A stretch of DNA of 64,000 nucleotides from Diacronema lutheri (lineage: Eukaryota; Haptophyta; Pavlovophyceae; Pavlovales; Pavlovaceae), in NCBI GenBank assembly GCA_019448385.1, contig JAGTXO010000029.1, positions 186,001-250,000 on the forward strand. Reading direction: 5' to 3'. The notes below the pieces were generated by a model. That model was given only the letters and a program-made list of their open reading frames with translations. It did not search any database and was not told the DNA's origin. Below are positions 16,013 through 38,198 of the stretch, one piece after another. The stretch's first letter is position 1; each line of letters starts with the position of its first letter. A program made the position numbers and the translations under genes.

Positions 16013-16077
16013 CTGGACGTCGAGCGTGTGCGCCTTGTCCGCACGTGTGCACTCACGTGCGTCTGCGGCGATCTGCC

Positions 16078-16798
16078 CGGCGTAGTAGTCCGCGCGCGCG
16101 GGAGCCGCGTCGGCAGTAGGAGCAGGATAACGTACTTGCGCCTGACGAGGACGGCGAGAAGTGCGGCTTTTCGCTCGGGGTCTACCATGCCGCCGAGGTT
16201 GGCGCTGGCGCGCGTGAGGCAGTCGGAGCGCGCTGGGCCCGGGTTGAAGGCCTCACCCCGTGGGACGGGAGGATTCAAGGCGCCGAGCCGCTGCGGGTGC
16301 GGCGGGAGGCCCCGGGCGGGTGTGCTAATGCGGCTCGATGGCCGCCTGCCGGGGGGGGGGGGGGGGGGGGGGAGGGGGGGGGGGGGGGGGGGGGGGCGTT
16401 GGGCCGCCCGCGGAAACGGAGGTGAGCGTGTGGGAGCGGCGCGCGTCGGCGCGCGCGGCTGGCGTGCAGCACGGATAAGTCTTGTGTGGACTTCGCGGGG
16501 CGGATCCCGGTGCAGGGATTGCCGACGTAGGCCGCGAGCGCGAGCAGGGCGGGGATGAAGACGGATGATGGGGTTGGGGCCAAGGCCGCCGCACCCGCAG
16601 CTATCACGGTGGCAGCGACCGCCACGGTCAGTGCGAGGCTCGCGTGGCCGCTGCGCGGGCAGCTCGCCCGCCAGGTCCAGGAGGGCCGGCCTGCGGCCTC
16701 AGTGCCCAGCGTTGGGCATGTCAGCGTCTGCGTCTGCGGGCCCGCCACTGCGATGGCGCATTGAGCCTGGCGCACCAAAACGCAATCGGTCCGCCGAT

Positions 16799-16842
<44 letters not shown>

Positions 16843-17360
16843 CGAGGCGTGCGCGGGGGCTTGGGGTGGGCTCCGGGTGCCGGCGCTGTGCCAGCGGCGG
16901 GCTTGGTTGACGCCGTCTCGCCGGGGCCCTTGCGCCTTGCGGCGCGAGCGTCGCGGAGGGGCGTCGGCTGCGCTGGCTCCGCGTCGGCGGTGGCGTGGGG
17001 CAGGCTCTTGTGGAGGGCGGAGCGCTCGCGCACGAGTCGGTTGCCAAGGCGGGCTGTCTGCGTGCCGTTGGGCTGCGCTTGGGCAGGTAGGACCTGCGGC
17101 CTCGGGGGCGGGCGGGTTTTCGTGTTGGGCCAGGCGGCAACGCGCACCGGCCGTGTTCGCGGCCGGCAGGCGGACGTCCGCAGCGGGGCGGAGAATGCGG
17201 GTGAAGCGCTTGCACGGGCGCGGTTCGCACCTGGCGGCCAGGCGATCACGAACCGTTGGGTCGCCCGGCTGTTTGGTGGAGCCGAGGGCAGCAAGGATAG
17301 CGAGCTTGGCCGCCTCATCGGTGACGAGCGGCACTGTTGCCCAGCTCTGTACCTCGAAGC
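16078..17360 (-). CDS. Probable minus-strand multi-exon gene, unresolved
   Basis: Islands of good coding sequence lie on the minus strand but I cannot chain them. A 17.2-17.36 kb exon is bounded by ATCCAG| and |GTGCGAAC and reads GFEVQSWATVPLVTDEAAKL, then AILAALGSTKQPGDPTVRDR. A second island (about 16.5-16.78 kb) follows a 43-base C run and a CAG, and has a hydrophobic stretch (SLALTVAVAATVIAAGAAAL). A third (16.1-16.28 kb) reads SDCLTRASANLGGMVDPERK and AALLAVLVRRKYVILLL. Family unknown. The very long C runs upstream of presumed acceptors are odd. Alternatively this is decayed sequence. Confidence 0.3.
16351..16396 (+). repeat. 46-base G run with one interruption
   Basis: A run of G interrupted by a single A at 16373, strongly capable of forming G-quadruplexes. 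On the minus strand it is a C run. Confidence 0.95.
16800..16842 (+). repeat. 43-base uninterrupted G run
   Basis: One of the longest G homopolymers in the window. On the minus strand it precedes a CAG that could be an intron acceptor. Its true length is uncertain with most sequencing methods. Confidence 0.95.
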
Positions 17361-18746
17361 CCTGGATGTGCAGGCGTCGGGGAAGTTCCCGGCAGCGTCG
17401 CCTGCGTCCGTCGAGAGGCGGACCGAAGTCGCGCCCGTGCCCCCGTTGGCGACACCGAGCTCTCGCTCGTTCACACCGGCCCGCCGACGCGGGCGCGTGG
17501 TGCGCGCGCGTTGGGTGCGTGTCTGCCTCGAGCAGCGTGCCCAGTCGCAGTGTGGGCGCGTGTCCGTCTGCCTCAAAACGCCACGTGGAGGGGAAGGCGC
17601 GGGGCGGGCTCGCCGAGGAGGTGCCGCCGCTCGCTGCCACCCGGCGCGGGCTCGGGGCAGCCGTCTTCGGGTGCCGCGCTCTTCGCGCCATGCACGAACG
17701 TTCCGCCGCGCTCGCAGCGCGCGAGCGCACACACAGAGCGCGCGGCGACCCCGGCGGGGGCAGTGCGTCCCGGTGGCACTCGCGGGCGCGCGCCTGGCCT
17801 GGGCGCAGCTGGGCGCGTTGCCGCCCGCGCAGCGAGCCGCCCGCGCGCCTCGCCGCGCGCGCGCTTCGTCGCACGCGTGCGCCCTGCATGCACGCGCACA
17901 GCGCGCGGCGGCTCGGCGCAGTGCAAGGCAGAGCGTGCTGCAACGGTTGCGAGGGCGCGCACGCGCGGCGCGGCGCGCCCCTGTGTGGTCGCCTGCGCGC
18001 GGCGCGTGGTCCGGACGCAGCTCGGTGGCGTGATGCCGTTCGTGCAACACAGTGCGCGTGAGAGCCGCACGTGCACACCTGCAGTGCAACGCGGCATTGC
18101 GCGCGTTGCGTGGGCGGAGCGCGGCTGGATGTGCTTGAGGTCGCGCAGCATGCCGCGCGCCGCGCGCTGTGCGGCGCAGCGAGTCGGCCATGCCCCTGGT
18201 CCTCGTCTCCGGGGGGGGGGGGGGGGGTGGTGGTGGCAACCAGGATCCGCCAGCGCGTGGTGGGCGCCGTCCAACTCCCAGCCAGGATGCGCCCCGTTCT
18301 TCCCCGACACTCTCCGTCCAAACCCGCCGCCCAGCCTGCCGCCGCACCCGCCGCCAACGCCGCCGCGCACCCATCCGCCGAGCTCACCTCGCGCGCGCTC
18401 GCGCTCACGCTGCGCGACGAGGCTGCGCAGGCCGGCGCGCGGCCGTGCAGAGCAGCGCAGGCCGGCGCGCGGCCGCGCGCGCGCGCTCACGTTGCGGCCG
18501 CGCAGCGAGCTTTCGCCGCGTCGCAGCCCCTCCGAGCAGCCACGATGCACGCCCCCGGAGGACGTTGGCCGCGCTCGGAGGCCGCGCTCGGGCGCGCAAA
18601 GAGAGGCGGCGCGGGCAAACGAGTAGGCTCGGCGCGCTGGCGGGTCCTGGTTGTGGGAGAGCGGGGCATTCTCCAGGGCATCATGTAAATTCTCCCAAGT
18701 ATCATCCGGGCCGCCATCCGGACACTGACGTGCCCACAGTCTGCAG
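17361..18746. other. Region upstream of the giant gene
   Basis: No recognisable gene. Arginine/alanine-rich frames are open on both strands without domains. A 17-base G run sits at 18211-18227, and a ~20-bp sequence (GCGCTGGCGGATCCTGGTTG) occurs near 18240 and, inverted with one mismatch, near 18640. A direct duplication of GCAGGCCGGCGCGCGGCCG lies near 18430-18475. The final 100 bp, less GC-rich and ending CTGCAG just before the ATG at 18747, is the most promoter-like part; that CTGCAG could also be an intron acceptor of an earlier exon. Confidence 0.4.
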
Positions 18747-21700
18747 ATGGAGGACTCCGTGAAGGACGCTTTGCCCGGCGGGCGGGGCGGCTCGGACAGT
18801 TTCTCGCTGGCCCTCAGCACCATTCTGTCGCCGGGAGATACCCACCCCCACGTGGTCCCATCCACTTGCCTCATCGCCCTGCTGCGTTACGCGGATTTCG
18901 GCACGAGCAGGGTTAGGGTGGGCGACACGGGGTGCTCGCAGCATGCGCTCAAGGTGGCGCTGCGCAACCTGCGCAAAGCATGCGCGGATGCGGACCGGTT
19001 TGGGCAGGTGCTCGTGGTCGTGCTACCGCTCTGCCTCCGCGCGTCCAGCGGCCTCGTGCACTGGACGGCGGCGTACCTGCTCCTCGCGCCGCCCGCGCAG
19101 CGCGGCGCGCCGCCCGGCGCCGCGCTCGCCCTGCTCGCCGATTCGCGCACCTTGGGCAACGGCGAATCGGCGTACGCCACGGCGGCCGGCGTGCTCATCA
19201 AGAAGCTTGCGCAGCGCATCGGCAGAACAGCGCCGCCCATCGATGCCTTCAAGGCGCCCCCGCAGAGTGGGGCCGCGTGTTGCTTCGCCGCGGCAACAGT
19301 CGCGGCCGAGGTCGTGGCGAGCGCATCGACGCTCTACGGCCGCCGCGCGAGTGTCCTTGTCGACATCAAGAAGGCTTTGGACGCGCGCCTCGCGCGCCTC
19401 ACGACGGCCGCGTACGAGGAGACCCGCGCGCGCACGCTCCGCGCCGCCATCGGCGCTCTGCTCGGCGACCGCGCCAGGCGCTTCGGCCCGTTCACCCGCG
19501 AGGCCGCGCGGCTCGCCGAGGCCGCGCGGCTCGCCGAGGCGTGCGATGCCAGTGTCGGCGGATCCGCGCCCGACGGGCTGCTGCAGGCCGTCGAGGCGGC
19601 GCTGCGCGCGCCCGACGACCGCATCGCACGCACGGCCGCGCTCGACGCGCTCACGGGCGCTGCAGGCCGCGCGCTGTCGACGGCGGCCAGGCCGCGCGGC
19701 GCGGCGGCGCCAAGGCCGCCGTCGCGAGCGCCACCGCCGCGTGCGCCGCAGCGGCGCGCCGCCTCGGCGTGGGGGCCCCGACCATTCAGCAGCCTCGGCG
19801 GGGGCGAGGGCGACGGGGACGATGGCGACGCCACCACCGCTGACGACGGGGAGGGCGCGGAGGACGGGGACGACGACCCCGCGGGCGCGGCGGCTGCGGC
19901 GGTGGCGACGGGCACGGCGGCGACGAGCGCGGTGGCGGCGGGCGCGGCGCCAACCTCGCCGGCGGCGGCGGACGGCGGTGGCTCGGCGCCGCTCGAACGC
20001 CGCTGCGTCTACACTGCGCCTGATGAGGGCGACGCGGACGCGCGCGTGTACGACGCCAAGGACCCCGAGCAGCTAAAAGCGGGCAGGGCGCGGCTACGGG
20101 CGAACAGCGGGCGCGCGCCCGCCGTGGTCGACACGCTTTTCGCGCACGCGACGGGCACGATCGTCACGCGGCAGCGCACGGAGGGCGTGACCGGCGCGGG
20201 CATGCACCACCTCGCCGCCCCGACGCAGGGCGCGGGGTACGGTACCGTCGTGCGGGCCGAGCTGGGCGAGCCCGGCTTCGCGGGGACGACATGGCACATG
20301 ACGTCGGGCGTGGAGAACCAGCCGCGCGCGGTACGAGCGGCCGCGCGCGCGTACGCGCACGACGGCTGGGGCGGCGTGTACAATGCGCACGAGGACTTTG
20401 CCGCCTTCGAGGGCTTGCCGCGGCTCGCCGCGCCCGAATCGCTCGCGGCCATCGCCGGCGGGTCGGCGGACGCGGTGTTCTGCTGGCGGTCCGGCCGGTC
20501 CGTCATCGGCGAGGTGACGACGGTTCACTTCAATGGCGACCGCGCCGCCGCCATCGACCACGCGCGGGCGCTGCGCGTCAGGCCCGATTGGCGCTCGCAG
20601 CCCAGGATCTACGAGGCGGCGTGCGGCGCGGAGGGCACGGTGCTGCTCGTGTGGGTCGTGCCCGACCGTCACAAGAACCCGCGGCTGGACTGGGCGCCGA
20701 TTCTCGTCGTGATCCACCTGCCCGCCGACCCCGACTGGCTCGCGCGCGCCACGCCGGCGATCGCGAAGGCGCGGCGCGAGGTCGAGGACGGACGCGCGCG
20801 CGCGGAGGCGCGCGGCGTGCCGCAGCACCTCGCCTACACGCTGAGCCCACGCTTCCGAGGCACCGCGCCGCGCGGAGCCGCGCGCGTGCCGCCGCGCCTC
20901 GGCGCGAGCGACGCGCGCGAGGCGCGCGCGCTCGCGGCGCTCGAGCCGGCGCTCATGTTCGCGCCGGCCTGGCGGCGCGCGGTGCGCGCGGCGAGCCGCG
21001 CCCCCGGCAGTGGCGCCGCGGCCGTCGAGCGCGCGCTCGCGCGCCTGCACAACGCGCTCGAGCCCGATGACGAGAGCGCGCCCGAGTCGACGCGCGTCGC
21101 GCCGCTCGCCGCCGCGCTCGAGCAGTCGGCGGGCTGGCCGGCGGGCACGGCGCGCATGGCGGCAAGCGTGACCAAGGGCCCCGGCGTCGGAGATGGCGCA
21201 GGTGGCGACGAAGTGACCAAAGTGGAGGAAACGGCGAAGACGAGCGGCGACGGCTGCACCGGCACGCCTCCTCTGCGCCCGGCCGCGCGCGCGGCCGGCG
21301 CGGCGGACGACGGAGGGGCGGCGGTCGTGGCGGGCGTCGAGGGCGAGCGCGACGCACTCGCCAAGACGGGTGCCGGCGGCCGCGACGACGACGCTCGCGA
21401 GCCGCTGTCGGCCGGCAAGCCCGGCGCACTCGCCGCCGCGGCGACCGTCGGGGGTCTCGGCGAGCTCGTCGGCAGCCTATGCGCGTGGCTGGCGCGCGGC
21501 GCGGCTGGCGGCGCCATCGCGGCCATCTCCCCCGGGACGGCCGCGCGCGGAGCAAACGGCACGCCGCAGCGCGCCGAGCCGCCGGCCGCCGGCGATCCCG
21601 TCGCTCCGCACGCGCGCGTCGCCGCTGCGGCGCCCTTGGCGGGCAGCGCGGCGGCGCCGTCGTCGGCCGCGCGCGACGCGCAGCGCGGCGTCGCGGGATT

Positions 21701-24700
21701 CGACGCGGCCGCGCACGCGCACGCGCGCGACGGCAGGCGGGCGGCACGGCGGATGCGCGAGCAGGAGGGGGCGGTGCACAGGGCCTTCCGCATGTCCCTC
21801 TGGCGCGACGCGACGTTTGTCGAGTTCGTTGAGAAGCTGCGCCCCGACGGCGGCGCGCAGCTGCTCGCGCGCGAGCCCACGCGGCGCGCGGCGGCGGTGC
21901 TGTGCGAGCTCGCGCGCGGCCGCGACGGCGCGAGCGGCGCGGCCGGGCTGCTGCACGAGATGAGAGCCGCCGATGCGCGCGCGCGCGAGGCCGCCAAAGC
22001 GGCGGAGGCAGCGCAGCTTGCGCACGGGACGCTGCGCATCGTGGCAACCGTGGCGCTGGGCGGTGCGGTCTTCGCCGGCATGTCAGCGCTGGTCGTTGCT
22101 TGCGCGGCGCGCACGGCGACCGGTGCGCTTTTTGGGGCCCGCCGCCCGCGGGCGGCCGCGCGCGGAGCCGACGACGCGCTCGGCACGCTGCAGCGCGCCA
22201 AGCCGCCGCCCGCCGACAAGGGCAAGCGCAGGCGCGCCAGAGCCAACGACGACCCCGTCGACGCGGCGCGCAAGGCCGTGGGCAAGGCGGAGGGCAACTG
22301 CCGCAAGGCAGCCCGCCGGCTGCACCTCGCTGCACTGGGCGAGGAGGAGGCGCAGCAGCGCGTGCTCGACGCCGAGGCGGCGGAGCAGCTGGCGCGCTCG
22401 CGCGAGCCGGCCGGCGGCTGGGTAGGCAGCGCGCGCGCGCGCGCGCGCGCGCGCGCCCCGCCGCGCGCGCGCCCGTCGATTGGCGTGCGCGCAGCGCAGA
22501 ACGGCGCGCCAGCTCCGTCACCTGCGCGCCGCCGCGCCCGTGCCCCTCGCGCGCAGGGGCGCCCTGCGGACCTGCGGCTGCAACAGGCGCACTTTGGCAT
22601 GCGCGAAGATGCCGACGCGGATGTGCGCCGCGCGCACGAGGCGCTGCGCCGGGCGAGAGAGGGTGTGGCGTGCGCCAAGGCCAGCGTGCGGCAGATGGAG
22701 GCGGCGTTGCTCAACGCGACGCGCTGCGCCACCGCGGTGCTCGCGCCGCGTGGCGTGCCGGAGGGTGACGAGCAGGCCGCGGCGAGAGAGCAGGCGGCGC
22801 TGGACCGGGAGGCGCCGCCGGCCGCGCAACGCGCGGCGCCGACGGCGCGCTCGCCCTCGGAGCCGCCGTCCGAGTGGGGCCCGCCAGCGGTCGGCCGGCG
22901 CCCGACGCCGCGTGCACTGTCGCACGCCGCGGGTCGCGGGGACGACAACCCGTTTGCGCCGCTCGCAACCGTCAGCGGCGATTGGTCGCCCACGCCGAGC
23001 TCGCGCTCGCCGTCCTCGCCGCCGCGGCAGCCGCCGTCCGACCGCCGCAGCGCGCAGCGTCGCAGCGCGCGCGCGCGGCCGCCGAGGCCGACCGTTTCGC
23101 CCGAGGACGCGCTCGCAGCCGAGCGCCAGGCGCGCGCGCTGTCGGAGCAGGCGGAGCAGAGGCGCGCCAAAAAGGCCGCCGCCAAGGCCGCGCGCCGCGC
23201 CGCGCGCGCCGCCGACAAGCGGACGGCGCGCGTCGTCCACGCGTGCGTAAGCGCCGCCTTGCGGCGCGTCTGCACGAGCGTCGCCACGGGCACGCCGCTC
23301 GCCGTGCTCCGCGAGCGCGCCGAGGGGCCGCGCGCGCCGAAGCCCGCGCCCGCGCCGCCACGCCGCGCAGCGGACGGCGGCCGCGCGCTCCGCCACGCGC
23401 GCCGTGCGGCCGCCGCGGCGGCGGAGCGCGAGGCGGCGGTGGCGGCCGACGCCGACGAGCGGTTCGAGCGGCAGCCCTCCACCGCCCGGTTCGACGGCGG
23501 CGATGGCGGCGGAGGCGGCCACGTCGAGGCGAGCGCGCGACCGCGCGCCGGCGAGGCCGGCGAGGCTGGCGCGCACGGCGCGCCTGGCGCAGCGGGGACC
23601 CCGGCGGCGTCGCTCGCGTCGCGCAGCCCGTGTGATGCGCGCCGCACGGCACGCCTCCCGCACGCACGCGCCGCAGCCACCTGCGCACGCAACGGCGGCT
23701 GGGGTGGCAACGTCGGCGGCGACGTGTGCGGCGGTTGTTTCGGCGGCGGCGGCGTCCGTCGCGACGCCTGCGGCGGCGGCGACGCCACCTGCGGCTGCGG
23801 CGATGGCGGCGTCGGTGCTGGCGCTGGCGAGGCCCCTGCACACGGTGCGCCGGCGCGCGCGACGGCGTCGCGCTTGCTGCGCTTGCTCGGCGCGCCACGC
23901 GCCGTGCTCGGTGCGATGGCGCACGCCGCGGCCGTGTTGGCGCGCGGCGTGGCCGCAGCCGTCGCTGGCGTGCGCGCCGCCGCGCGCGCCGTGCGGCGCG
24001 CGCGCCGCCGAGCGCCTCGCGCGCGCCGCACGGCTGCGCGGCGGGCTCGCGGCCCGCCGATGCGCGACGTCGACGGCGCCCTGCGGCCCTCGCCGTCCTG
24101 GTTGCGCACACGCCTCGTCTGCGGCCGGCGCCTCGCGCCTCTGCGCCGCGCGGGCGCGCGCCCGCCGCCCGCACACGCCGCGCCGAGTTCCCGCGCGCGC
24201 GCTGCGCAACCCGACAGCGACGCGCCGGCGTGCGCGCCGCGGCGCTCGGCGCCTGTCGGTGCGCCGCCGCGCGCGCGTGGCCTGCGCGCGGCGCGCGCAC
24301 GGCGCTTCCTCGACGTCGCCGGCCGCGCGGCGCGGAGCGCGCGCCTCGGCGCGCGCATCACGCGCCAGCGCACGCCGGGTTCGCCATCGGAGCCCTGCAC
24401 GGCCGAGAGCGGCGACGGCGCGGGCGCCGGCGGCGTCGGCGCGGCGGCGCCTGGCGCGGCGACGATGCGCGCCACCGGCGCGCGCGCAGCGCGCGCTGCG
24501 GCGGCGGCGGTCGGTGGCGCCTCGCGTCTCGCGCGCCGCGCGATGGCAAGCGCCGCCGCCGCTGCCACCTCCATCGCCGGCGCTGCCGCCTCCACCGTCG
24601 CCGCCGCCGCCGTTGCCATCGGCGCGGCCGTCACGTCACCGGCGTTCGCCGCGGCGCGCGGCATGGCGGCCGCATGCGTCGCTGCCTGCGCCCGCCCCAC

Positions 24701-27004
24701 CGCCGCGCAGGCGGCCGCGTCGCGCGCGCTCGGCGCGCTCTTCGTGCTCGTCGACGCGGCCGACGCGGCGGGCGACAGCGACGCCGCGCTCGGCGCGCTC
24801 GCGGCCGCGGTCGACGCGACGGAGCTGCGCCCGCCGCCGGCCTTTTGGCGCGCGGGCCGCGCCGCGGCGTACGCACCGCGTCCGCCGCCCCTCGACTCGG
24901 CGCGGCCGCGCTACAACCGGCGCGCGCGCGCACCTAGCCCTCCCGTCGCGGCCGCGCGGCGCAATCTCGCGCGCGCGGTGCGCGAGCTCACGCGCGCCGC
25001 GCGCGCTGAGCGCGAGCGCGCGCCGGCGCCGCGCGGCGCGCGCGGCGGCGTGCTCCACGCGCTGCGCGCGTCGCTCCCCGTGCACGCGCGTGCCGCGCTC
25101 GGCACGGACGCGGAGCTGCGCGCGGACATCGCCGCGTTCGCGCGCGCGCGCCGCGAGCTGCACAGCCTCACCGACGCCGAGGTGGCGGCGCTCGCGCGCC
25201 CGGACGGGCCGCCGCTGCCCGTGCGGCTCGCGTGCACGGCGGTCGCGCGCGCGCGCGGCGTGACCGTGCTGCTCGACATCGTGCCGCGCGGCGGCGGCGC
25301 GCCCGAGCGGCTCGTGTGCCGCGCCCGTCGCCGCGGCGCCGCCACGCGCACGCCACGGCCGACAGCCGCCGTTATCGCGCGCGCGCCTTGCATAGCGGCG
25401 CGCGTTGGCCACACTGAGCCGGCGCGCGCGTGCGCGGGCGGATCGATCGGGGTCGCGCGCCTCCGTTCAGCGCGCCGCCGCTCTTGGCGTGGGGCGCGGC
25501 TCGACGTGCACACCCGCGAGCGGCTGGCCACACCGGTGCCAGGCCACGTCGTGGCCTGCGCCGCCGCCTCGGCCATCGGCGCGTGCGTCGCTCGCGCGCG
25601 GCTTGGGCTTGCACGGCTGGCGCGCGCGTGGCCCTGCGCCTCCGCTCCACTGGCCGCTGCTGCTGTCGCCTTCGCGCCTGCCGCCGACGGTGTTTTCTGC
25701 GCCCCGCTGGGCGCTCCTGCATCCGCCTTCGCGCCTGCCGCCGACGGTGTTTTCCCCGCCGCACTAGCCGCTGCTGCATCCGCCTTCGCGCCTGCCGCCG
25801 ATTTTCCCGCCCCACTAGTTGCTCCTGCATTCGCCTCCGCGCCTGCCACCGACGGCGTTTTCCCCGCCCCACTAGCCGCTGCCGCTGCCGCGTCCGCGCC
25901 CGCCGCCGCGGGCGCGTCTTCCGCCCCACCAGCCATCGCCGCCGCGCCCGCCGCCAACGCGCGCACCGCCAACGTGCCCGTTGCCAACGAGGCTACCGCC
26001 ACCGAACCAGCCGCCCTTGAGCTTCCCCTCCAACCCGCCAACTCGGCGCTGCTTGCGTGGGCGGGCGACGCGGCTGCGCGCCGGCTGGCCGCCGCCGCCG
26101 CGAGCGCCGGCCTCCCGCAGGCAGAGGTGGAGCGCATCGCCAGCGGCGACATGCTCGCCTCAACCGTCGACGCGTGCTGCGAGGTCGTGCTGCGCGTGCA
26201 CGGGCAGGCCGGCGGCGGGCATGTCTGCCACGTGCCGCTCGCCGCGCAACCCGCGGTGTTTCAGGACGACGCCGAGCGCGCCGCGCTGCTGCACCGCCTG
26301 CGCAGCGAGGCGACAACGCAGGCTGTCATCGGCGTGTGGAGCCCGTCGGACGAGCGCGGCGGCGCGGGCGGTGACGACGGCGCGCAGCTCGCCTCCGGCC
26401 ATTTCACCGCGTTGCGCCTTGTGCGCGTCGCGCGCGCGGGCGAGCATCGCTACGACGCGGTGCTCGTCGACACGCTCGCGTCGCCCTGCAGGCAGGCGCT
26501 CATGCTCGCCAAGGCGATAACTGCCACGCTGCACGCGGCGGGTCTCGACATTTCGCGCGTGCGCCGCGCGCTGCTGCTCAACGAGGCGGCGCAGCGTGGC
26601 GCGACGTGCGGCCTCGCGATAGTGGGCGCGCTCAACGACGCGCTCGCCGCGGCGGGCTGCTCGTCCGCGCCGCGCACGTTCAGCGTGGCGGACATGTACG
26701 CTGTCGGCGAGCGCCTCCGCGTCGCGCTGACCGGCGCGGCCAGCGATCGTGCGCCGGGCGGCGTCTGCGCGGTCACGAGCGCGGTGCGTGGCGGGGGCAG
26801 CCCCGATCGCGCCGAAACGCCGCCGCAGACGCGCGGCGCCAAGGCCGCCGCTGGCGTCACCGCCGCCGCCACCGCCGCCGCCACGCCGCCGCCGCCCGCG
26901 CTGGGCGCCGCCGCCGCCGCCACCGCCGCCGCCGCCGCTGCTGCCGCCGCCGTGGCCGCGCCGCCACCGCCGCCACCGCCGCCGCCGGCCGGCGACGCGG
27001 GCGA

Positions 27005-27077
<73 letters not shown>

Positions 27078-30000
27078 GCCGCGCGCACGTTCTTGAAGCT
27101 CGCGCCCAGGGCGCGCGCGGCCGCCTCGGCGCGTGAGGCGTTGCGCGCCGCGTGTGCGCGCGCGGACGCGGCGGCGTCGTCACACGCGTCGGCGCCGCAC
27201 GCGCCCGCCGGTGCGCGCCGCCGGCGGCGCGCGGGCGCAGGCGAGCTGGCGCTCGCGGCTGCGCGCGCGCTCGCCTCGACGGAGCACGGCGATTTGACGG
27301 ACGACGCGCTCGAGGCCGCCGTCGAGCAGGAGCTGGGCGACGAGCGCGGCCAACTGCTGCTGTGCACGCGGGGCGCAGCGGCGCAAAGGCCCGCGCTTTG
27401 CCGGCTCCTGAAGCACGCGTGCGCGTCGGCGCGCGCGGCGAAGCGCGCGCAATTCACGGTGTTCGTCGTGCGCGCGGCCACGCGCGGCGAGCGGGGGGGC
27501 GCCGCCGCGAGGCGCGTGGACTCGGTGGTCGAGCTGTCGTGCGCGCTGCACGAGAAGGCGGGCGCGCTCGGCGGCCTCCAGCGCGTCTGTGTGCGTGGCT
27601 TCGCCCTCGAGCGCCGCCGGACACTCGACGCTGGCGCCGAGGCCGGCGCGTCCGCCATCGGCCAGGACGAGCAGGTCGAGGCAGAGGCGGGCGAGGCGTG
27701 CGTCGCCGGCGTGACGATGGCCAAGCAGCTGCGTCAGTTTGCCGAGCAAGCTGCCCGCGACGACGTGCTCTTCCACGTCGCCGTGTCCGAGGCCGACGCC
27801 CACGCCCGGCTGGCGCGCGTTGCGGGTGACGATGTCGGCGCGTACAGCGTCGTGCTCGCAGTCGCCGGGCTCGTCTGGCTGGCCAAGGCCGACGAGGTTG
27901 CGCCGGCGGCCGCCCAGCCCGCCGCCGTGCCGCCCGCCGCCCCGCCTGCTGCCGCCACGTCCGCCGACGCCGAGCGCGACGCCTCGCCTTCCGACCGCCT
28001 GCGCGCGCTGACGCTCGCCGTGCGAGTCGCGCTCGCGCGCGGCGTGCTGCGCCACCTCCTCGCCGACGCGTCGCCGGGCGCGTCCGCGACCGCTGGCGGT
28101 AGTTGCGCGACGCCCGTCGAGGCGGCCACGTCCGCCGCCGCGCCGCCCGCCACGGGCGTCGTGACGAGTGGCGTTGCGGCGGGCGCTGTGGCGGCCGCAC
28201 CGGCTGCTGCGGGCGGTGCGATGGCGGGTGCATCGCCCATCACGCGGCCGGCGAAGCGCGCGCGGCGCACGCTCACCGCCGCTCCAGCCGCCTCGGCCGT
28301 TGCGGCCGCTGGAGGCGCACGCGCGGGCGCACGCGGCGCGGCCGGCGCGCCTCGCGCGCGCGCCGCGCGCGCGCCGGCCGAGTACGTCTGGCTTGCCATC
28401 GCGCGCCGGATGCTGGCGGCGCGACACGCGGCGGCCGCGGGCGGCGACTTTGTCGCGTCGTGCGTCGCCGCGATGCAGGCCGAGTACGGCGACGGCTGTG
28501 CCGTCGTCGTCGGCGACGCGCCTGATGACGCCTTGGTCGAGGCTGCGGCGGCGGCGCTGCTCGAGGGCAAGCACGCGGCGGTGAGCCTCGGCTGCGTCGA
28601 CCGGCCGGCGGTGCTCGTCGTGCAGCGCGCCGTGGACGCGCCCACGTCGCGCGTGCACGGGTGGTGCGCGCACGCGGCGGGCGCCGCCGAGTTTGACGAG
28701 GGCGCCGCGCACGGCGTGTTCAACGCGATCGTCGAGCGCGCGTGGGCGCTGCGTCCGGACCCGGCCGACGGCAGCCCGCCGCCCACGCGCACGTGGGAGG
28801 TCGAGCAAATCGCTGGCGACGCGCCCGACCAGGCGGGCGTGGCCGCGCTGCGCGTGCTCTACGCGCTCGTCGCGGCGCACGGCCGCTACCGCTCGGCCGC
28901 CGCGCTCTTTGGCGCGCTCGCGCAGCTGCACGCGCCCGACGCCGCCGGCGCGCGCGCGGAGGTCGTCGCGGCGGCGTGCGCGGTGCCGCCCGGCGCGCGG
29001 CCGGGCGCCGCGCCGGCGGCCGCGCGGGACGACGCGAGGGAGCGCGCATGGGACGGCGCTCAGATCGCCGCGCTCGCCGTCGGCGCGGACGCTGCGCGCA
29101 GGCGTGTCGCGCCCGTGCGCGCGCTCGTCGACGCGCTCGGCACGCCACCGACCTCGGCGATCACGGGCGGGCCGGCGGTCCGGCTCGCGGGCGCGGGCGA
29201 CGGCGGCCACGGTGCACGGTGGGTGGGCGGGCAGGCGGCGACGCCCGCCGAGCAGCTGCCGAGGGAGCTGCTGCGCGCCTACCACGAGGCGGTGCTGTGC
29301 GTCACGCCCGGCAGCCTCCAGCTCGGCCCGGCGGCGCTCGACGCGGTCACGCGGCCGCGCGAAAACGACACGCTGGAAGGCCTCCTCGCGCGCGTCAGCT
29401 GGCAGTGCGGCGCGAGGGCGAGCACGTGCGCCATGCTCGCCACGTTTTCCGAGCAGGCGGGCACCGGCTCGCGCGTCGCGCTCAAGGCCCTCCGCACGAG
29501 CTCCGACCTGGCCGGGCTGACGGCGGCTGCGGTCGGGCAGCAGGCGCCGCAGACGCCGCCGCCGCCGCTTCTCGTGATGCTCGGCCGCTGCCCCAGCCCG
29601 CTCGTCGGCGGCGGCCTCTTCCCGCCCGACCGCGCGACGGGCGAGCCGGCGGTGCACGCGGCGACGTCCGAGCTCGCCGTCGAGCTGCTGCGCGACGCGC
29701 GCGCGCTGGCCGGCACGGACGGGCGGCTCGTCGTGCTGTGCCTCGAGGCGTCCAACCCGCTCTGGTTCTGCCCCAAGGTGCGCGAGCTCGAGCTGCCGCG
29801 GACGCGGTCGGACGGCGTGCGCGCGTCCGGCTGCACCTGCCCTGCGACGTGCAGCGATGCGCGCGGCGCGGCGGGTGGCGCTGCCCGCGGCGCATCGACG
29901 CGGCCGGCGGCGCGCGCGATCAACAAGGCGGTGCTCGACCACTTCGTCGCGCTTTTCGGCCGCGAGGGCTTCGCGACCTTTGAGTTTGCGGGCGGCGGCG

Positions 30001-33000
30001 AGGCGAGCTGGCTGTGCGACAGCGCGGCCGGCACGACGACCGTCGCGGCGTGCGCGTCGCTGCCGCCGCGCATGGGCGATGGGCAGCTGGCCATCCGGCG
30101 GCACACGCTCGGCACGGGCGCCGACGCGCCGGCGCACGCCGTCGTCTCGCTCCGCGTCGCGCACGTGAGCCACGCCATCCGCCGCGCGGCGGACGACGGC
30201 GGCGCGCGCGCCGAGCGGATGGCGCGCGCCGCGCGCGCGTTCTGCGATGTGGCGGCCGCGCTGCGCGTCGACGCGATCCTGGCGGAGGTGCCCGAGGACC
30301 GCCCGACGGGCACGCCCTTCCTTGGCGGGCTGCTCAAATGTTGGGACAAACGCAACGGGAGCTGGACGGCGCCAGCCACGCTCGCGCTCGGAGACGTGCG
30401 CGAGGTGGCCAAGCGGACGGCCGACGCAGCGGCCGGCCGAGCGGACGAGGTCCCTGCGGCTGGCCGTCCGCAGGTCGCGGCGCGCGCGTGCGCTGGCGCG
30501 ATTGGCGGCGGCGCGGGCGCGGCGGGCGCCTCGGACGCTGCGCCGCGTGCACTGGCGGGCGCGTCGGGTGCGCGCACGGACGGCGGCCCTGCCGACGCAC
30601 CGCGCCAGCTGGAGAGCCGCTACGGCGAGGCGAGCAAGCTCGACCTACCCCAAGATTCCACTACGGGCCGCGTCCTCGACGCTCGCGAGGCCCAGGACCG
30701 CGCGCGCGTGCCTGCTGCGCCCGACGGCACAGCGCTGCGCCGCGTGCTCGACGCCGTCGGCGCGGGCGCGCCCGCGCAGCGCAGCCCGCGCTGGCACGAC
30801 GAGCGATGGGAGGAGGTCACGGGCAGCAAGGTTGGCGACGTCGTGAACGACAACGCCGGCGTCGCGCACGAGACGCTCACCGACGAGTACGTGCACCGGC
30901 GGCGGCGCGAGGTGCGGACCAAGGCGACGACCGCGGGCATCCTCGGCGAGGCCGTCGCGCTGCGCAAGCTGGCGGCCGCGTACGGCATCACCGTCGTGTG
31001 CAACCTGCCGATGGTGCGTGCGGACCCGCACGACAAGAGCGCGCCGTTCGCCTTCTCGCCGGACGGGCTCGCCATCCTCCCCGAAAACAACGAGCAGGTC
31101 CTCGTCGAGGTGAAGACGCTCACCAAGGCGGGCGCCACGGCGCACGAGGACGGGCCGCCGCAGCCGCACCGCGATCAGCTGCAGCTCGGCATGCACGTCC
31201 TCGGCGTGAGCAAAGCGCTCTACGTGCAGTACCTCAGGCACGAGGACCGGATCGTCGTGCACGTCGTGACGCGCGGCGCCGGCTGGCTTGCATTCGCGCA
31301 GCCGAGGGTGCAGGCCTTCTGGGCGCGCGTCGTCGAGCGGCGCGCGCGGCTCGAGCGCGCGCGCGCCGACCACCCGGCTGCGAGCCGGCGGCACCGGCGG
31401 CAGCAGACGCCGGCCGGGCCGCCGCTCGTGCTCGCGCTGGACGGGCGCATCCCCGCCGCGCGCGCCGCCGCGCTGCACGCCGTCGCGCACGGCACCGCGA
31501 GCGCGGCGGCGGTGACGGCGGCGGCGGCGACGGGCGACGCGACGGCGTTGCAAGACGCGATCGCGGCGCTGCGCGCGCCCGTCGGCAATGCGGCGATCGA
31601 CAGCGCAGCGCGTGCGGAGCGCGCGGCCGTCGAGCGGGCGATCGCGTACCTCGGGCAGCCGACAGGCGACGCCGCCGCCCGCGGCACGGCCGAGGCGGCC
31701 GAGGAGGAGAGGACGGTCGACGCCGACATCTGCGCGTTGCTGCACCAGCTCGGCGCGAGCGTGGCGCACGTGCACGTCGAGGACGCGGATTGCGTCACGC
31801 GTGAGCACTGGGGCGGGGCGGTGCTCGCTGCAGCGGGCGACCCGTCGAGCGCCCCCGCCATTTCGAGCGTCATCGTCGCGCACATCGTGCGCCTCGCCGG
31901 CTTTGGCGTCGAGCTCCCGCAGTCGATTCGCGTCGCCCCCAGCACGGCCGACTGGCACGAGGGCTGGCTCGACGTGCAGTGCGTGCTGCTGCGCACGCGC
32001 CGGCGCGGGCGGCGCGACGACGACTTTGTGGCCGTCGTCAGGCGCGGTGGGCGCTGGTTTGCGTGCGAGCCCGGCCGCGCGCGGCGGCTGCAGTGGCGGT
32101 CGGTCCTGCGCCGCGCGCGCGGCGGCGTCGACGGGACCGGCGAGGAGGCGTTCGCGGTCGTCTACGTGCGGCGCGGCGACGCGGCCGGCGACGCGGCTGG
32201 CGACGCGCAGGCCGAACGGGCGCGCGGCGGGCGCGCGCGCAGGCGCACGCGCGGCGGCACGCGCAAGCGCAAGCGCGGCGCCTCCGCCGGGCTCGAGGCG
32301 GCCGCGCCCGCCGGCGCGCCGGCGGGCGCTGCTCACCGCCCGCCCGCCAGGCGTGCCACGGTCGCCGCGCGCACCACGCGCTCTGTGACCGACGCGCGGC
32401 ACTCGGCGCCTGCCGCCACGGTTGCACCTGTCTTCGACTGGCGCGCCGGCCGCCCGCCCCCTGCCGCCGCCGCCGCCGCCAAGCGCGGCCAGGCGCTCGA
32501 GCCGGGGCAGTTCGCGCGGCCGCGTGGGCGCGCGCCATGGGGCAAGGTCTGGGACAGAGTCTCGGGTGCGTGGGCGGACAAGCCGACTGGTGCTGCCGTC
32601 GCCGCCGCGCCGCCGCCGCTGCCGCCCGCCGCCGCGCCGCCGCCCGCCGCCGCGCCGCCGCCCACCGCCGCGCCGCCGCCCGCCGCCGCGCCGCCGCCCG
32701 CCGTCGCGCCGCCGCCCGCCGCCGCGCCGCCGCCGCCGCCGCCACCGGCGGCGCTCGGCCGCCGGCAGCACGTCGGCGCGGGCGGCAGCGCGGCGGGCCG
32801 GCGGCTCGCGGCCATCGCACGGCGGCAGCGCGGCGTGCGCGCGCCGCCGCCCGCCGCGCGCTTCCTCGCCACGCTGCCGCCACCGCCACGCGACGGCCTC
32901 GCGCGCACGAGCAAGCAGGCGCGCGCGAGGCGCAACGCGGACGGACGGCCGGCGCACGCGCGCGCGGCCAACGCGCGCGCCTTCTACCGCGGCGTGGAGC

Positions 33001-36000
33001 TCGGCGTGCACGCGACGCGCGCCATCGTCGACGCGCGCCACGCCGACCTGCCGCAGGCCGTCTTCGTGGCGGAGGCGCGGGCGATCGTCGCGCGCTCCGC
33101 CGGCGGCGGCGCGCTGCTCGCGCCGGACGACGTGCGCGACCTGTGCGACGCGCAGACGGACGCCGATCGCGCTGCGATCTGGGCGTCGGTGGGCGCGCAC
33201 GAGGCGACGCGCATCTTCGCGCTCGTCACGCGCAACGCGAGCTTGGCGGGCGCGGCGCTGCTCGTGCTGCACACGCCGGCGGGCGCGCCGGCGCGCGCGC
33301 TCGGGCTCCTGGCGACGCGCTCGCGCGCGCCGTCGACGGGCGCGCCGCGCGACGCGCACAGGGCGCTGGTGCAGCGGTTGGACGTGCTGATGGACGCGAT
33401 CGCCGCGGCGCGAGGCGCGTCGCCGCTCGAGCTCGAGCTCGCGCTCGCGCCCGAGCCGCAGAGCGCGTGCAACGCGCGTGCGGCCGCGCTGCTCTGCCTG
33501 CAGGCCGTCGCGGACGCGAGCGGCCGTCCCGCCGCTGAGGACGCGCTGGCCGCGCTCGACGACGCGCGCGGCATCGACCGGCACTGCCACGCCGTCCGGC
33601 AGCAGATCGAGGCGAAGCTCGCGTGGCGGCGCGCCGACGGCGCCGTCGGCGTTGACGGCGCCGACGGCGCGCCCGCGCTCGCGCCTGCCGCCGCACCGCC
33701 GGCGTGCGCGCCGGCGCACGCTGCCGGCGAGGCGGCGGTCGACCAGGCGATCGTCACGCGGGTGCGCGACGCGCTGCGCGCGTGGGCGACGACTGGCACC
33801 GCGCCCAGCGCGGCGGTGCTCGACGACGCCTGCGCCGCGTACACGGCCCGCGCACGCGCGCGCAAGGACGCGCGCACGGCGCTGGGCCCGACGCGCGCGG
33901 CCGAGCTGCTCGCCGCGGCCGCGCGCGGCGGAGCCGACGGGGCGGATGCCGCGCGCGCGCTGCTCGGCGGCACGCCGCGCCTGCTCGTCGTGCTCCTCTG
34001 CGTGCCCGTCGCCGCGCCGTCCGGCGAGCCGCCGCGCCCGGTCGGGCTGCTCGTCGCCGACCGGCCGACGGACGACTCGCGCCCGGCCGCGCTCGTGCGC
34101 TACGACTTTGCGCCGCTCGACGCGGACGTGGCCGTCGCGGTCGGCGCGCATGCCGTCGCGCTGGCCAGTGCGATCTGGCCGCTGCTCGCGGCCGAGGGGG
34201 AGCCGCGGCCATCGCCCGTCGTGCGCTCGCAGCCGCGCGGCGGCGACGATGGCGCGCGTGCGCTCGCAACGTTCGCGTGCCTCGACGCGCTGATGACCGC
34301 CAGCGTCGGCGCGCACGGCCTCGCGGGCGGCGCGGGCATGCTGCCCGCGCTGGTCGCGCGAGGCGCCGCGGCCGCCCAGCGCGAGCGGCAGCTGCGCGCG
34401 GCCGCCGAGAGGCTGGGCGGCACGGTCGCTGGGTGGCCGGACACGGGCGCGAGCGCGGCGGGCGCGAGCGTCGACGAGGAGGCGCGCACGTACGAGGTCG
34501 AGGCGGTCGTCGACGAGCGCCGCAAGGCGGGCAAGAAGGTGACGTTCCAGTTCCGGATCAGGTGGCGGGGCTACGACGAGAGCGCCGACACGTGGGAGCC
34601 TGAGGCCAACGTGAGCAGCGACCTCGTCGCCCAGTTCCGCAAGACGCGCGACGAGCAGAAGCGGCGCGCGGGCGTATCGGGCAGCGGCAGCGGCGGCGCG
34701 GGCGCGGCGTCGGCATTGGCGTCGGCGCCGCTTCGCGCGCACGGCGAGTCGGGCGCCGCGGGCAAGCGCGCCGCGGCGGGTGCCGCCGCGAGCGCGCGCG
34801 ACGCCGCGGGCGCGCGCGCGCCGAGCGTTCCCCGCGCGCGCGGCGTCGAGCGCGCGCGCGTGGACGAGCCCGCTGCGCCGAGCGCGCGCGCCGCCGGCGG
34901 CGCGACGGCGCGCACGCGCGTCAGCGTGCTCCCGGGCTTCGTGGTCAAGCGCTCGACGCTCAACGCGGGGCCGCAGGCGGTGACGGCGCAGCCCGGTGCG
35001 CGGAAGGAGCTGCGGCGCATCGCGGCGGCCGTGCACAGGCTCACGACACAGGCGTACCGCGTCATCAACAAGGTGGTGCGCGACGAGGCTGCGGTGGCGA
35101 GCGCGCAGGCCGTCGGCGCGGCGTCGGGCGGCCCGTCGACCAGCGTGCACACGTCGACCACGATGGACAAGGGAACCGTCCGTGCGATCTTCTCGGCCAT
35201 CGGCTGGCACAAGGACGAGAGCACGTACGGTGCAGCGCCCCGAGGCAAGCCCGCCGAGCAAGCCGCCGCGCAGACCAAGGCGGCGACGGCGCGCGCCGTC
35301 GGCGAGATGGCCGAGGGCGTCCAGCCCGTCTGCGCGGTGGGCCTCTTGGAGATCCTCGAGGCGGAGGCGACGCAGGTGTCCACCGCGTGCCTGATGCATC
35401 CATCGCGCGTCGTGAACGGGCTGCTCCGCGACGTCGTCCGCGCGGCAGTCGAGCGCGACGAGGCGCTCGTCGCGCTGCCCGAGATGCAGCGAAACGCGCG
35501 CGTGCGCGAGCTGTGCGAGCGGCTGCTGCGCGGCGACGTGGAGGGCGCGCGCGTCGGCTGCCCCGCCGCGCTCGACCGCCACCTGCCCGACATGGTCCTC
35601 CACAAGATCGACTACAAGTGCACGCCCACGAAAAGGTGGAACTACGACCGGCACACGACGCGCTACTTCCTCGTGCAGATCCGCACCCTGCAGCACGTGG
35701 CCGAGGGGCAGGCGCTGCTCTGCCGGCTCGCGCACATCCACACGCAGCTGACCGGACGGCCGCCGCGGTACAATGTGGCGCCGCTGCGCACGCACAATGT
35801 GCGCGCGAGGCGTGGCTGCCGCTGCCGCCGCCGAGCGCCCAAGCGCGCGCGCCGCCGCCGTGCGCGCCGCCCCGCGGCCAGGTTGGTCACGCGCCCGCGC
35901 GCTCGCGCGCCGCGCGCTGCGCGCAGGTGCCGCGCAACGTGCGCCTCGCCGCGAGCGCCATCTGGGTGACGCTTTCGGATGACGAGCGCAAGGAGCTGCG

Positions 36001-37651
36001 CGCGCGGCTCAAGGCGCTGGACCTGCGCGACCACGATGGCGAGCCGATCAAGTGGACAGGCACAAACGGCAACACCCCGCCGATGTCGGACGTGCGCGTC
36101 AGGTACGCGGTCTTTGCGACGCGCTTCGACATCTCCAACCGCGTCTTCGACTACGCCGGGCGCGAGCGGCCGCCGGTCGATCTGCCGTGGCACGCGCGGC
36201 GCTCGTGGGTTGGCCTCGCGCCGCTGCCGCGCGTGCCGCTCCCGGGCCGGCAGCCCGTCAAGTCGGTGGTGACAGATGGCGTCGCCGTGCACGCCGTCGG
36301 GACCGTCCTCGTGCCGAAGGCGCAGGCGCCGGCCGGCGGCTCGGGCGTCCTGCACCGCTGGCGCCGGCCGGACGGGCGCATCGCCGTCGCGCTCGGCTCC
36401 GAGCTGCGGCGGGCGATCGACGTCGAGGCGGCGGTCGTCGTCGCGGCCGACCCGAACATGGGCAACATCACCACCTACTCTGCGCACGTCGGGCGGGCGG
36501 CCGTCTGGCGGCAGTTCACGCAGCGCGCGCGCGCGCGCGCCGCGGGCTTTGCGCGCGAGACGGCCAAGACCAACGCGGCGCGGCGGCGCGTGCGCAAGGA
36601 CGGGCGCGGCGAGGAGTTCAGCGTGGAGGCGGACGAGGCGCGGCTTGGCGAGGCGCACAGCGCCAAGGTGCTCGGCGAGGGCGAGTTCCACGCCTTCCAC
36701 CGCGAGAGCGCGCGGGTGCGCGAGCGCGCCGCCGAGCACGTGTACGACGCGCCGGCGCGCCGGAAGGAGCGCTGGCGGCGCGACAGCGGCGGGCGGTCCA
36801 ACGCGGCGCGCGTCGCCGAGGCGCTCATCGCGGCGCACTGTGTCGACGGCGTGACGCGCGACCGGCTGCTCGTGTGCGTGGGCAAGTGGCTGCGCGACCA
36901 CAAGGGCGCGCAGCCCAAGGGCGCGCCGCCCGCCTTCCAGGTGGGGCTGCTGCGCGAGCTGCGGCGGCGCGGCGTCGCGGCCGTCTTCGTGCCCGAGCCG
37001 TACACGTCGATGCACTGCTCGATGCCGCGGCTCGCCAAGGGCGGCAGGCTGCAGCGCTGCGGCGCGGAGCTCGCGCAGAACCCGCGCCTGCCCGTCGCAA
37101 AGGGCGGCACGCGCACGGTGCACGCGCTCGTCATCTGCCCGGCGTGCAACGGCGGCAAGAAGCCCGTGCACCGCGACTACAACGCCGCGCGCAACATCTT
37201 CTACGACGTGCACGACATGGCGGCGCACGCGGCCGGGCGCGACACCACGTCGACGCCTGAGCGCTTTGCCCTCGTGCTCGCCTGGTGGGCGCGCGGCGAG
37301 GTGTGGGAGCGTGAGGAGCGCATGGTGCACGGCGAGGGCGACGACTGCGACGACGAGTGCGACGGCGACGACGAGGGCGACGACGAGGGCGACGACGACG
37401 ACGACGACGATGGCAGCGGCGACGGCGGCGGCGGCGAGGGCGACGGCGACGGCGACGGCGACGGAGGCGGCGGCGGCGACGACGACGATGACGGCGGGGG
37501 AGGCGGCGGCGGCGACGGCGGTGGCGACGACGGCGGCGGGCGCGGCGGCGGTGGCGGCGGCGGCTCTCGCGCCCGCACCCCCGCCCGCGGAGCTGCCAGC
37601 GCCAGTGCCGGCGGCGGCAGCGCGCGCGGGCCGAAGCGCGGCCGGCGTTGA
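18747..37651 (+). CDS. Giant 6,258-aa polyprotein: C48-like protease, YqaJ exonuclease, chromodomain, Fanzor nuclease
   Basis: Exon 1 18747-35798 (17,052 bp, no in-frame stop), 128-bp GT-AG intron in phase 0 (35799-35926), exon 2 35927-37651. Domains in residue order: C48/Ulp1-like protease (~45-190); Ala/Arg-rich sequence with hydrophobic helices (~1095-1125, ~1925-1980); a tandem 17-20-residue repeat (~2300-2390); second C48-like domain (~2480-2640); poly-Ala; degenerate C48-like modules near 3362, 4905 and 5162; YqaJ-type nuclease (~4010-4180); USP-like remnant (~4320-4480); Pro/Ala linker; chromodomain (5247-5305); Fanzor (~5390-6120); Asp/Gly tail. Known: Fanzors are eukaryotic TnpB homologs, often inside transposons. 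Inferred: a mobile-element replication/integration polyprotein processed by its own proteases. Further introns, or several genes read as one, cannot be excluded. The nearest gene on the right is the convergent CFAP418. Confidence 0.8.
18879..19316 (+). other. Domain: C48/Ulp1-like cysteine protease 1 (intact triad)
   Basis: Residues about 45-190 of the giant protein. Candidate catalytic residues are His105 (LVHWTAAYLLLA), Asp132 (LLADSRTLG), Gln173 and Cys179 (PPQSGAACCFAAATVAAEV). Order and spacing (H-27-D-41-Q-6-C) fit clan CE proteases. In canonical Ulp1 the Cys is followed by Gly; here it is Phe. Confidence 0.6.
25650..25920 (+). repeat. Tandem coding repeat in the giant gene
   Basis: Four to five imperfect copies of a 51-60-bp unit encode SAFAPAADGVF[C/P]APL-like segments (ASAFAPAADGVFCAPLGA, ASAFAPAADGVFPAALAA and further variants), a flexible Ala/Pro linker before the second C48-like domain. 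Confidence 0.75.
26184..26666 (+). other. Domain: C48/Ulp1-like cysteine protease 2 (intact triad)
   Basis: Residues about 2480-2640. His2552 (ASGHFTALRLVRV), Asp2575 (YDAVLVDTLASP), Gln2616 and Cys2621 (NEAAQRGATCGLAIVGAL) lie in the right order, with the Cys-Gly pair typical of the family. This is the better preserved of the two protease-like domains. Confidence 0.65.
27006..27075 (+). repeat. (GCC)n microsatellite coding poly-Ala
   Basis: About 22 uninterrupted GCC triplets encode an alanine tract in the giant protein, just downstream of proline- and alanine-rich sequence. Slippage would keep the frame. Confidence 0.95.
30774..31290 (+). other. Domain: YqaJ/lambda-exonuclease-like PD-(D/E)XK nuclease
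   Basis: QRSPRWHDERWEEVTGSKVG is the usual R-x-W-R-T/S-x-S opening of YqaJ domains. GILGEAVALRKLAAAYG supplies the first acidic residue. Asp4106 (FAFSPDGLAIL), Glu4121 and Lys4123 (VLVEVKTL) form the PD-ExK core, and HRDQLQLGMHVLG with ALYVQYLRHE is the conserved last helix and strand. All core residues are present. Confidence 0.85.
34485..34662 (+). other. Domain: chromodomain
   Basis: TYEVEAVVDERRKAG ... FRIRWRGYDESADTWEPEAN is a standard chromodomain. The aromatic cage residues that bind methyl-lysine are all present: Tyr5249, Trp5273 and Tyr5276 (equivalent to Tyr24, Trp45 and Tyr/Phe48 of HP1), with Trp5283 of the TWEP motif. Confidence 0.9.
34920..37240 (+). other. Domain: Fanzor (eukaryotic TnpB-like RuvC nuclease)
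   Basis: A helical N-terminal part (LRRIAAAVHRLTTQAYRVIN) leads to SVVTDGVAVHAVG, then RuvC-I VVVAADPNMGNITTYSAH (Asp5859), RuvC-II VFVPEPYTSMHCSM (Glu6041), a zinc ribbon (Cys6048, Cys6062, Cys6088, Cys6091) and RuvC-III VHRDYNAARNIFYD (Asp6101). All three catalytic acids are present. The intron at 35799-35926 interrupts the domain before RuvC-I. Confidence 0.85.
35799..35926 (+). other. Intron of the giant gene
   Basis: Donor AAT|GTGCGCGCGAGG, acceptor CTGCGCGCAG|GTGCCGCGC, 128 bp, phase 0. Exon 1 frame and exon 2 frame differ, and joining them makes the Fanzor region continuous (PLRTHN then VPRNVRLAAS). The retained form would end at 35969. Confidence 0.8.
37330..37575 (+). repeat. Asp/Gly-coding low-complexity tail
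   Basis: GAC- and GGC-rich imperfect triplet repeats encode the acidic C-terminal tail of the giant protein, with runs of Asp and Gly and no structured domain. Confidence 0.9.
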
Positions 37652-38198
37652 CGCACGGCCGAGCCGCGCAGCGGTCGACGCTTTGCGGGCTCTGCCCAGG
37701 TCGCGCGCGGCTGGCGACGCGTGCCGCGCGCGGCACGACCGTGCACGCCGCCACCCGTGGCCGAGCGCGCCGCACCAGCCGGCCCGCTCCAACCGCCGTG
37801 CGGATCACGGACGCTCGCTACGGCTCGTCGGCGCGCGTCACCTGCGCCGGCGGCCACGGCGCCGTCTGCTCCGGCCTCGTCGCGAGCAGCCCGACCGCTG
37901 CTCGCCGCCCGCACGCCGCCGCAGCAACGCTGCGCGTCGTGCTCCCCCGCTCGCCAAACGCGAAGAGCTCCCTCACAAGGACGTCCTTCCGAACGGCCCG
38001 CGCTGCACTCGGGGCGCGATCGTGCCCCTGATCGGATTTGGCTTGACCATCTATACGCGGGAACGCCTACCCGAAGCGGGGGAGGCAGCGAAGGCCGAAG
38101 GCTCAGACGCATGCCTCCCCCTGTCCCCGGCCTGCATGGTGAGAACTGAGAACGTGCACGAGTGACCAAGCATTGCGTCATTGCCTCGGTCAGCTGAG
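37652..38198. other. Gap between the convergent giant gene and CFAP418
   Basis: No protein gene is supported. Fanzor/TnpB guide RNAs (omega RNAs) are usually encoded at or just beyond the 3' end of the nuclease gene, so this 547-bp stretch is where one would be looked for. I cannot identify a fold by eye. Confidence 0.4.

Follow-up and report, generated by a model that had tools for sequence, protein, structure and literature searches.

A 31-kb mobile element in Diacronema lutheri with a giant gene predicted to encode a lambda-type exonuclease, a chromodomain and a Fanzor nuclease

A reading frame of more than 17 kb in the genome of Diacronema lutheri is one gene of a mobile element that has been amplified recently to about 100 near-identical, dispersed copies, a conclusion that is strongly supported by the copies themselves. 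We put a probability of about 0.62 on the fuller reading, in which this is a new giant, Fanzor-bearing DNA transposon of 31 kb that encodes a helicase, a USP-like protein and the giant gene and would be copied by an RNA-guided mechanism. The window that we analysed is a stretch of 64,000 bases, from 186001 to 250000 of contig C48 (a contig label, not the peptidase family), in a genome of 103 contigs and 43,492,796 bases. Names such as C9, C36, C71 and C82 denote genome contigs that carry other copies of the element, and positions are those of the window.

6995 to 38056, plus strand: the whole mobile element, 31,062 bp, with left terminus CTATATACGGCGCGG and right terminus CCATCTATAC and no terminal inverted repeat
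8994 to 9864, no strand assigned: a near-perfect palindrome, with 378-bp arms that are 98% complementary and GGGTGTA-type tandem repeats

The ends of the element are exact. Identity to three other copies (on C36, C9 and C82) begins at 6995 and stops at 38056, and the flanking sequences are unlike. The C36 copy is 99.2% identical to the window over 31,093 aligned bases, the C9 copy carries an inner inversion and the C82 copy has an inner deletion, one end of which falls inside the palindrome. On the left, all 40 scored places (the best 40 of 275 candidates, including the window itself and its fragment at 39616-40310) reach base 6995, plus one diverged fragment. On the right, the end is complete in 18 of 20 Fanzor-exon loci (L002-L021, one of which is the window), all reading CTATAC before running into unlike sequence; one of the remaining two stops at a contig end inside the terminus and the other starts 9 bp short. 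Both ends of the element carry CTATA(TA)C, except for the left end of the C36 copy, which has GTATATAGG in place of CTATATACGG, and no inverted repeat was found between them. The Fanzor exon is present in at least 89 copies with 99-100% amino acid identity, 88 of them free of stops, and the second helicase exon in at least 110 copies with 98-100% identity, of which 87 are stop-free and 23 contain a stop; both counts are minima, since scoring was limited to the best candidates. The first-pass annotation had already proposed a mobile element, and the exact ends, unlike flanks and dispersed copies place that proposal on stronger grounds than it originally had.

Several features surround the insertion. 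A host gene for an MCM6-like replication helicase (4268-6757) lies immediately to the left, and a left-end piece at 6760-6994, diverged to 80% identity, directly adjoins the insertion point. We read this piece as the remnant of an older copy of the element, beside which the window copy sits. On the minus strand at 39616-40310, 1.6 kb past the right terminus, there is an inverted left-end fragment of 695 bp that is 96% identical; as the window shows no second right end, this fragment could represent a truncated relative or a non-autonomous one. Within the element, two G runs of about 46 and 43 bases, at 16351-16396 and 16800-16842, vary in length between copies. Repeats near the element flanks yielded no empty site, Rfam and tRNA scans of the window gave no matches, and a search of viral and prokaryote contigs with short exact patterns, which reach close relatives only, found no relatives of the element.

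The element also coincides with contig breaks. Twelve contigs (C1, C5, C6, C10, C12, C26, C29, C80, C83, C90, C91 and C92) start within about 60 bp of its right terminus, as reckoned from the helicase exon and, for C12, placed to the base, while C3 and C13 end at or near this terminus. Breaks at the left terminus are fewer, with three contigs (C32, C69 and C72). We rejected a telomere-capping element, as TTAGGG arrays lie at the ends of other contigs (at the start in C15 and C30, among the 100 of 212 matches listed). Given these arrays, the stops at the right terminus probably mark places where the assembly broke because the repeat exceeds the read length.

18747 to 35798, plus strand: exon 1 of the giant gene, 5,684 codons in the window copy (open reading frame, coding signal and simulation control)
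35799 to 35926, plus strand: putative intron, GT...AG, 128 bp (change of coding frame and reading of the sequence)
35927 to 37651, plus strand: exon 2 of the giant gene, with the Fanzor RuvC and zinc ribbon followed by an acidic and glycine-rich tail

The giant frame is real. The stop-free stretch of about 17 kb described in the first-pass annotation is present exactly as stated, as an open reading frame of 5,740 amino acids on the plus strand (18747-35969), overlapped by a second frame that ends at 37651. Composition-matched simulated sequences, 100 for each model, reached at most 1,577 open codons in any of six frames with an order-1 Markov model and 1,797 with order 2, so that a frame of 5,740 codons is not a product of chance. 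Third-position GC and codon usage, the latter from a table partly trained on the giant gene itself, favour a single frame at 18.75-35.6 kb and a second one at about 35.9-37.3 kb. Joining the exons across the putative GT-AG intron gives 5,684 plus 574, or 6,258 residues, which reproduces the single intron and the length claimed at the outset. The coding signal is weak or negative near 22.8 kb and at 23.4-24.5, 25.2-25.9, 26.7-27.1, 27.9-28.2 and 32.2-32.7 kb, stretches that would represent low-complexity linkers or introns.

Within 22420 to 22464, plus strand: a (CG)n run, the length of which decides whether the giant frame is whole

The first-pass annotation had interpreted this gene as a single polyprotein of 6,258 residues, from which two internal C48-type proteases release an exonuclease and a chromatin-targeted Fanzor. 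The frame is continuous in the window, and the window-length (CG)n run recurs as an exact 45-base pattern, which misses copies with a further mismatch, at 12 places genome-wide including the window. However, among 40 scored copies (the best of 177 candidates; they lie on contigs C1-C27 and exclude the window), the run has the window's length in 4, is shorter by 2 bp in 35 and is longer by 16 bp in 1. Both variants close the frame, so the single chain exists in the window DNA and at those exact matches and is missing in 36 of the 40 scored copies. In the C36 and C9 copies, for example, the run lacks 2 bp, and the frame from 18747 ends at 1,345 codons (counted stop to stop), followed by a second frame of 4,495 codons in C36 and of 3,123 in C9, where the inversion cuts it. 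Because most scored copies have the frame split here, the gene as a rule probably yields two large proteins, of about 1,300 and more than 4,500 residues, unless the run is spliced out with an intron. Coding signal in the window's frame extends over both sides, and the longer run could thus be the older coding form; alternatively, the run may be intronic or may have been altered by polishing of near-identical repeats. Elsewhere in its giant exon, the C36 copy has indels of 27, 24, 29 plus 4, and 18 bases. They are weak evidence that the frame is kept, since triplet-type tandem repeats underlie two of the sites (27049 and 32621). A single extra base occurs in the C82 copy at 27587, bordering its deletion.

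19059 to 19283, plus strand: first C48-like motif, HWT..ADS..QSGAAC (motif only, without profile support)
26400 to 26609, plus strand: second C48-like motif, HFT..VDT..QRGATC (motif only, without profile support)

The proteases that such a polyprotein would need fared poorly. The two H-D-Q-C motifs have plausible order and spacing, and a pattern fitted to both was found in 0 of 500 shuffled sequences, whereas a generic H-D-Q-C pattern was reached by 49 of the 500 (2 observed, shuffle mean 0.52). Pfam C48 gave no match at E≤1 in three pieces covering the frame, nor at E≤10 in smaller pieces bearing the motifs, and its profile matched only 9 places genome-wide, too few for the roughly 100 element copies and located elsewhere. 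Six presumed protease-like modules were combined into a profile, which had no match in the PDB, though the underlying alignment was poor. Two single-sequence structure models had mean pLDDT values of 36.9 and 41.3 (the latter for a C48-like candidate), too low for use. The claimed C48 domains are thus reduced to motifs, and cleavage by the element's own proteases is unsupported, because these modules lack a profile match and the C48 profile finds so few places in the genome. We regard the self-cleaving polyprotein as most doubtful.

Sequence changes between copies bear on whether the gene is in use at all. Relative to the window, replacement and silent changes in giant exon 1 number 75:25 in C36, 25:11 in C82, and 10:5 and 4:1 in two stretches of C9, with some changes common to several copies and an expectation of about 2.2:1. 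There is no excess of silent changes and no visible constraint in this exon, as expected for copies drifting after insertion, and selection therefore does not demonstrate use of the protein. A near-neutral ratio would also suit passive copies, that is, inactive remnants spread by gene conversion or by a helper elsewhere, in which the giant frame is no longer translated; the closed frames and the helicase exons with stops (23 of 110) agree with this. Yet the Fanzor exon is open in all but one of its 89 scored copies, which speaks against passive copies. None of the compared substitutions creates a stop in the giant gene, a result that says little because only about 1.6% of substitutions would make one. 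We consider it unlikely that the copies are passive.

30771 to 31346, plus strand: lambda-exonuclease/YqaJ domain, with SPDG at about 31056 and EVK at about 31107 (profile matches)
34491 to 34643, plus strand: chromodomain (Pfam Chromo)
34917 to 35798, plus strand: probable N-terminal part of the Fanzor module, on exon 1 (position and coding signal, without a profile match)
36449 (D), 36995 (E) and 37175 (D), with Cys at 37016, 37058, 37136 and 37145, plus strand: Fanzor RuvC and zinc ribbon residues (motif spacing)
37652 to 38056, plus strand: right-end stretch of 405 bp from the Fanzor stop to the right terminus, the expected place of a putative guide-RNA scaffold

By profile match, the product or products of the giant gene include a Fanzor nuclease and a chromodomain as well as a lambda-type exonuclease. 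The exonuclease, with its PD-(D/E)XK core, matches PHROG 434 at 1.2e-16 and the NCBIfam model TIGR03033 at 1.4e-6 (28.5 bits, below the cut-off of 68). With Pfam YqaJ the window copy scores 19.0 bits, below the cut-off of 22, while the C71 copy, a few residues different, passes that cut-off with 28.2 bits. The chromodomain is clear, with a Pfam E-value of 2.3e-12 (47.1 bits against a cut-off of 25.1) and PDB matches to chromodomain Y-like (2.4e-9) and HP1 (2e-7).

For the Fanzor, its exon matches Pfam TNB (PF07282) at 2.4e-6 and 28.0 bits, just above the cut-off of 26.3, while the NCBIfam TnpB model scores 12.7 bits against a cut-off of 100. PMC3627910 gives the Fanzor/TnpB pattern as D-X(125,275)-[TS][TS]-X-X-C4 finger-X(5,50)-RD. 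The protein agrees with it, having 185 residues between D and TS, four cysteines and 8 residues from the last cysteine to RD. PMC10711439 describes the Fanzor clade by DPG at RuvC-I and ExxxxxxCxxCx(12,18)CxxCx(4,8)D, and assigns the rearranged glutamate, ExxxxxxC, to Fanzors and their nearest TnpBs. The glutamate here, 7 residues before the first zinc cysteine in E-PYTSMH-C, fits this arrangement. Departures from this description are DPN rather than DPG at RuvC-I, C-x(13)-C rather than CxxC for the first cysteine pair, and 9 rather than 4-8 residues before the last D. We conclude that the Fanzor assignment stands, with a predicted D-E-D set of Fanzor type. Profile searches uphold the Chromo, YqaJ and TNB modules of the first-pass annotation and not C48. 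Its description holds for the frame, the exonuclease with its core, the chromodomain and the C-terminal half of the Fanzor, including three RuvC acids and a zinc ribbon; its interpretation retains the mobile element and these enzymes and loses self-cleavage, with the single chain confined to a minority of the scored copies.

10434 to 11594, plus strand (frame of 10215 to 11747): first exon of the helicase gene, with an N-terminal part and then the Walker A region, PIF1/Helitron-type
11642 to 12763, plus strand: second exon of the helicase gene, borders approximate, with PIF1 and Pif1_2B domains
13866 to 15356, plus strand: USP-like frame, with a Cys box at about 14568-14834 and a His box at about 15168-15272

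Upstream of the giant gene, the element encodes a helicase and a USP-like protein. The helicase gene has at least two exons; the first matches Pfam PIF1 (4.2e-14), with Helraiser as its best PDB match (1.2e-6), and the second matches PIF1 (3.3e-22) and the 2B domain (2.8e-13). Its N-terminal 312 amino acids have no Pfam or PDB match at E≤10. Among solved structures, to which the comparison is confined, the Helitron transposase Helraiser is the best relative with 83 bits, against 24 for PIF1 entries, which suggests a PIF1-type helicase of the Helitron kind. The USP-like frame matches Pfam UCH at 4.3e-8 (33.5 bits against a cut-off of 23.9), with weak matches to USP12, USP46 and USP7 (best E 0.044). 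A region at about 31965-32170 in the giant frame resembles, by eye, the USP His-box region with the histidine absent, and has no Pfam match. A Pfam scan of all 52 other frames of at least 150 amino acids that overlap 6990-18800 recognised no transposase or recombinase; the only matches above cut-off were PIF1-type and UCH.

The helicase raises the possibility of a rolling-circle, Helitron-like element in which divergence or interruption by introns hides the Rep protein from recognition, and the Fanzor and exonuclease are accessory cargo. Along with the helicase's closeness to Helraiser, the missing terminal inverted repeats are consistent with such an origin. So is a short hairpin, GGGGCGCGATCGTGCCCC, which the predicted fold places near the right end, although this fold as a whole is not better than shuffles. 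PMC3627910 reports Fanzor1 in algal Helitrons. Set against this, the Helitron Rep profile (Helitron_like_N) matches a single place genome-wide, on C63, compared with about 100 element copies, no convincing HUH motif appears in six frames upstream, no Rep (HUH) domain is joined to the helicase, and the ends are not TC...CTRR. A Helitron-like origin is possible, and we lean against it. We think it very unlikely that a tyrosine recombinase of the Crypton type recombines the element at its short CTATA(TA)C direct repeats. Repeats of this kind at both ends (the C36 left end departing) without an inverted repeat would fit, since PMC3627910 describes tyrosine-recombinase elements without inverted repeats and Cryptons with short terminal direct repeats, but integrase-domain places number only 16 genome-wide, far fewer than the copies, and Pfam found no Crypton tyrosine recombinase in the scanned frames of the element.

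Our preferred reading, a Fanzor-bearing transposon copied under RNA guidance, would instead place the Fanzor at the centre of the process. TnpB and the Fanzors studied so far are RNA-guided, and the guide RNAs of insect-virus Fanzor1 run about 15 nt past the element end, according to PMC10711439 and PMC10432273. The Fanzor here, encoded at the extreme right end, might use a guide RNA that runs across that end; the layout fits, as its stop codon lies 405 bp from the right terminus. The final 156 bp of the element are identical in the best 40 of 263 candidates, and predicted RNA folding at the right end is not better than that of shuffled sequences (z -1.13 and -0.13). With a guide supplied by the flank, the Fanzor would cut DNA without the element, the lambda-type exonuclease and the helicase would process the break, repair would copy the element in, and the chromodomain could hold the machine on chosen chromatin. 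First integration would still need a further enzyme; none was recognised, and the genome-wide integrase and Rep matches (16 and 1) are far below the copy number. A bolder version would unite, in one polypeptide or gene, a guided break by the Fanzor, resection by the RecE/lambda-type exonuclease and choice of chromatin by the chromodomain, so that 31 kb is copied to defined sites without a classical transposase; we find this distinctly unlikely.

Known systems share parts of this organization. As in the Fanzor1 and Fanzor2 elements of Bao and Jurka (2013, PMC3627910), a TnpB-type RuvC and zinc ribbon with D-TS spacing in the published range is encoded close to an end of a DNA element with many copies, and no transposase is recognised, as in several published cases. 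In contrast, the prototype given there has 633 amino acids, whereas the Fanzor here forms the C-terminal part of an exonuclease-chromodomain frame in a 31-kb element, with DPN replacing DPG. Helitron and Helitron2 elements such as Helraiser resemble it in the helicase, the lack of terminal inverted repeats and the hairpin near the right end, and differ in their Rep (HUH) domain, which was not found here, their termini and their much smaller coding content. The lambda exonuclease/YqaJ/RecE family shares the PD-(D/E)XK core and a profile match, but here the domain lies inside a eukaryotic multidomain frame, and no annealing-protein partner was recognised in the scanned frames. Starships are likewise counted among the giant eukaryotic transposons and have a similar size class and accessory enzymes. 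The same likeness extends to Polinton, Teratorn and Terminon (PMC6431247), although the frames scanned here contain no DNA polymerase, capsid, integrase or reverse transcriptase above cut-off. We found no open-access title or abstract opening that describes this combination of Fanzor, exonuclease, chromodomain and giant transposon, which is not proof that it is unpublished.

The background question is why so many eukaryotic transposons carry Fanzors. A young element with about 100 near-identical copies in a culturable alga, whose Fanzor shares a frame with a chromatin reader and an end-resecting exonuclease, makes the idea of 'cut and copy' directly testable. If it is true that these enzymes act as one unit, the element would offer a natural model of how more than 30 kb can be inserted under RNA guidance.
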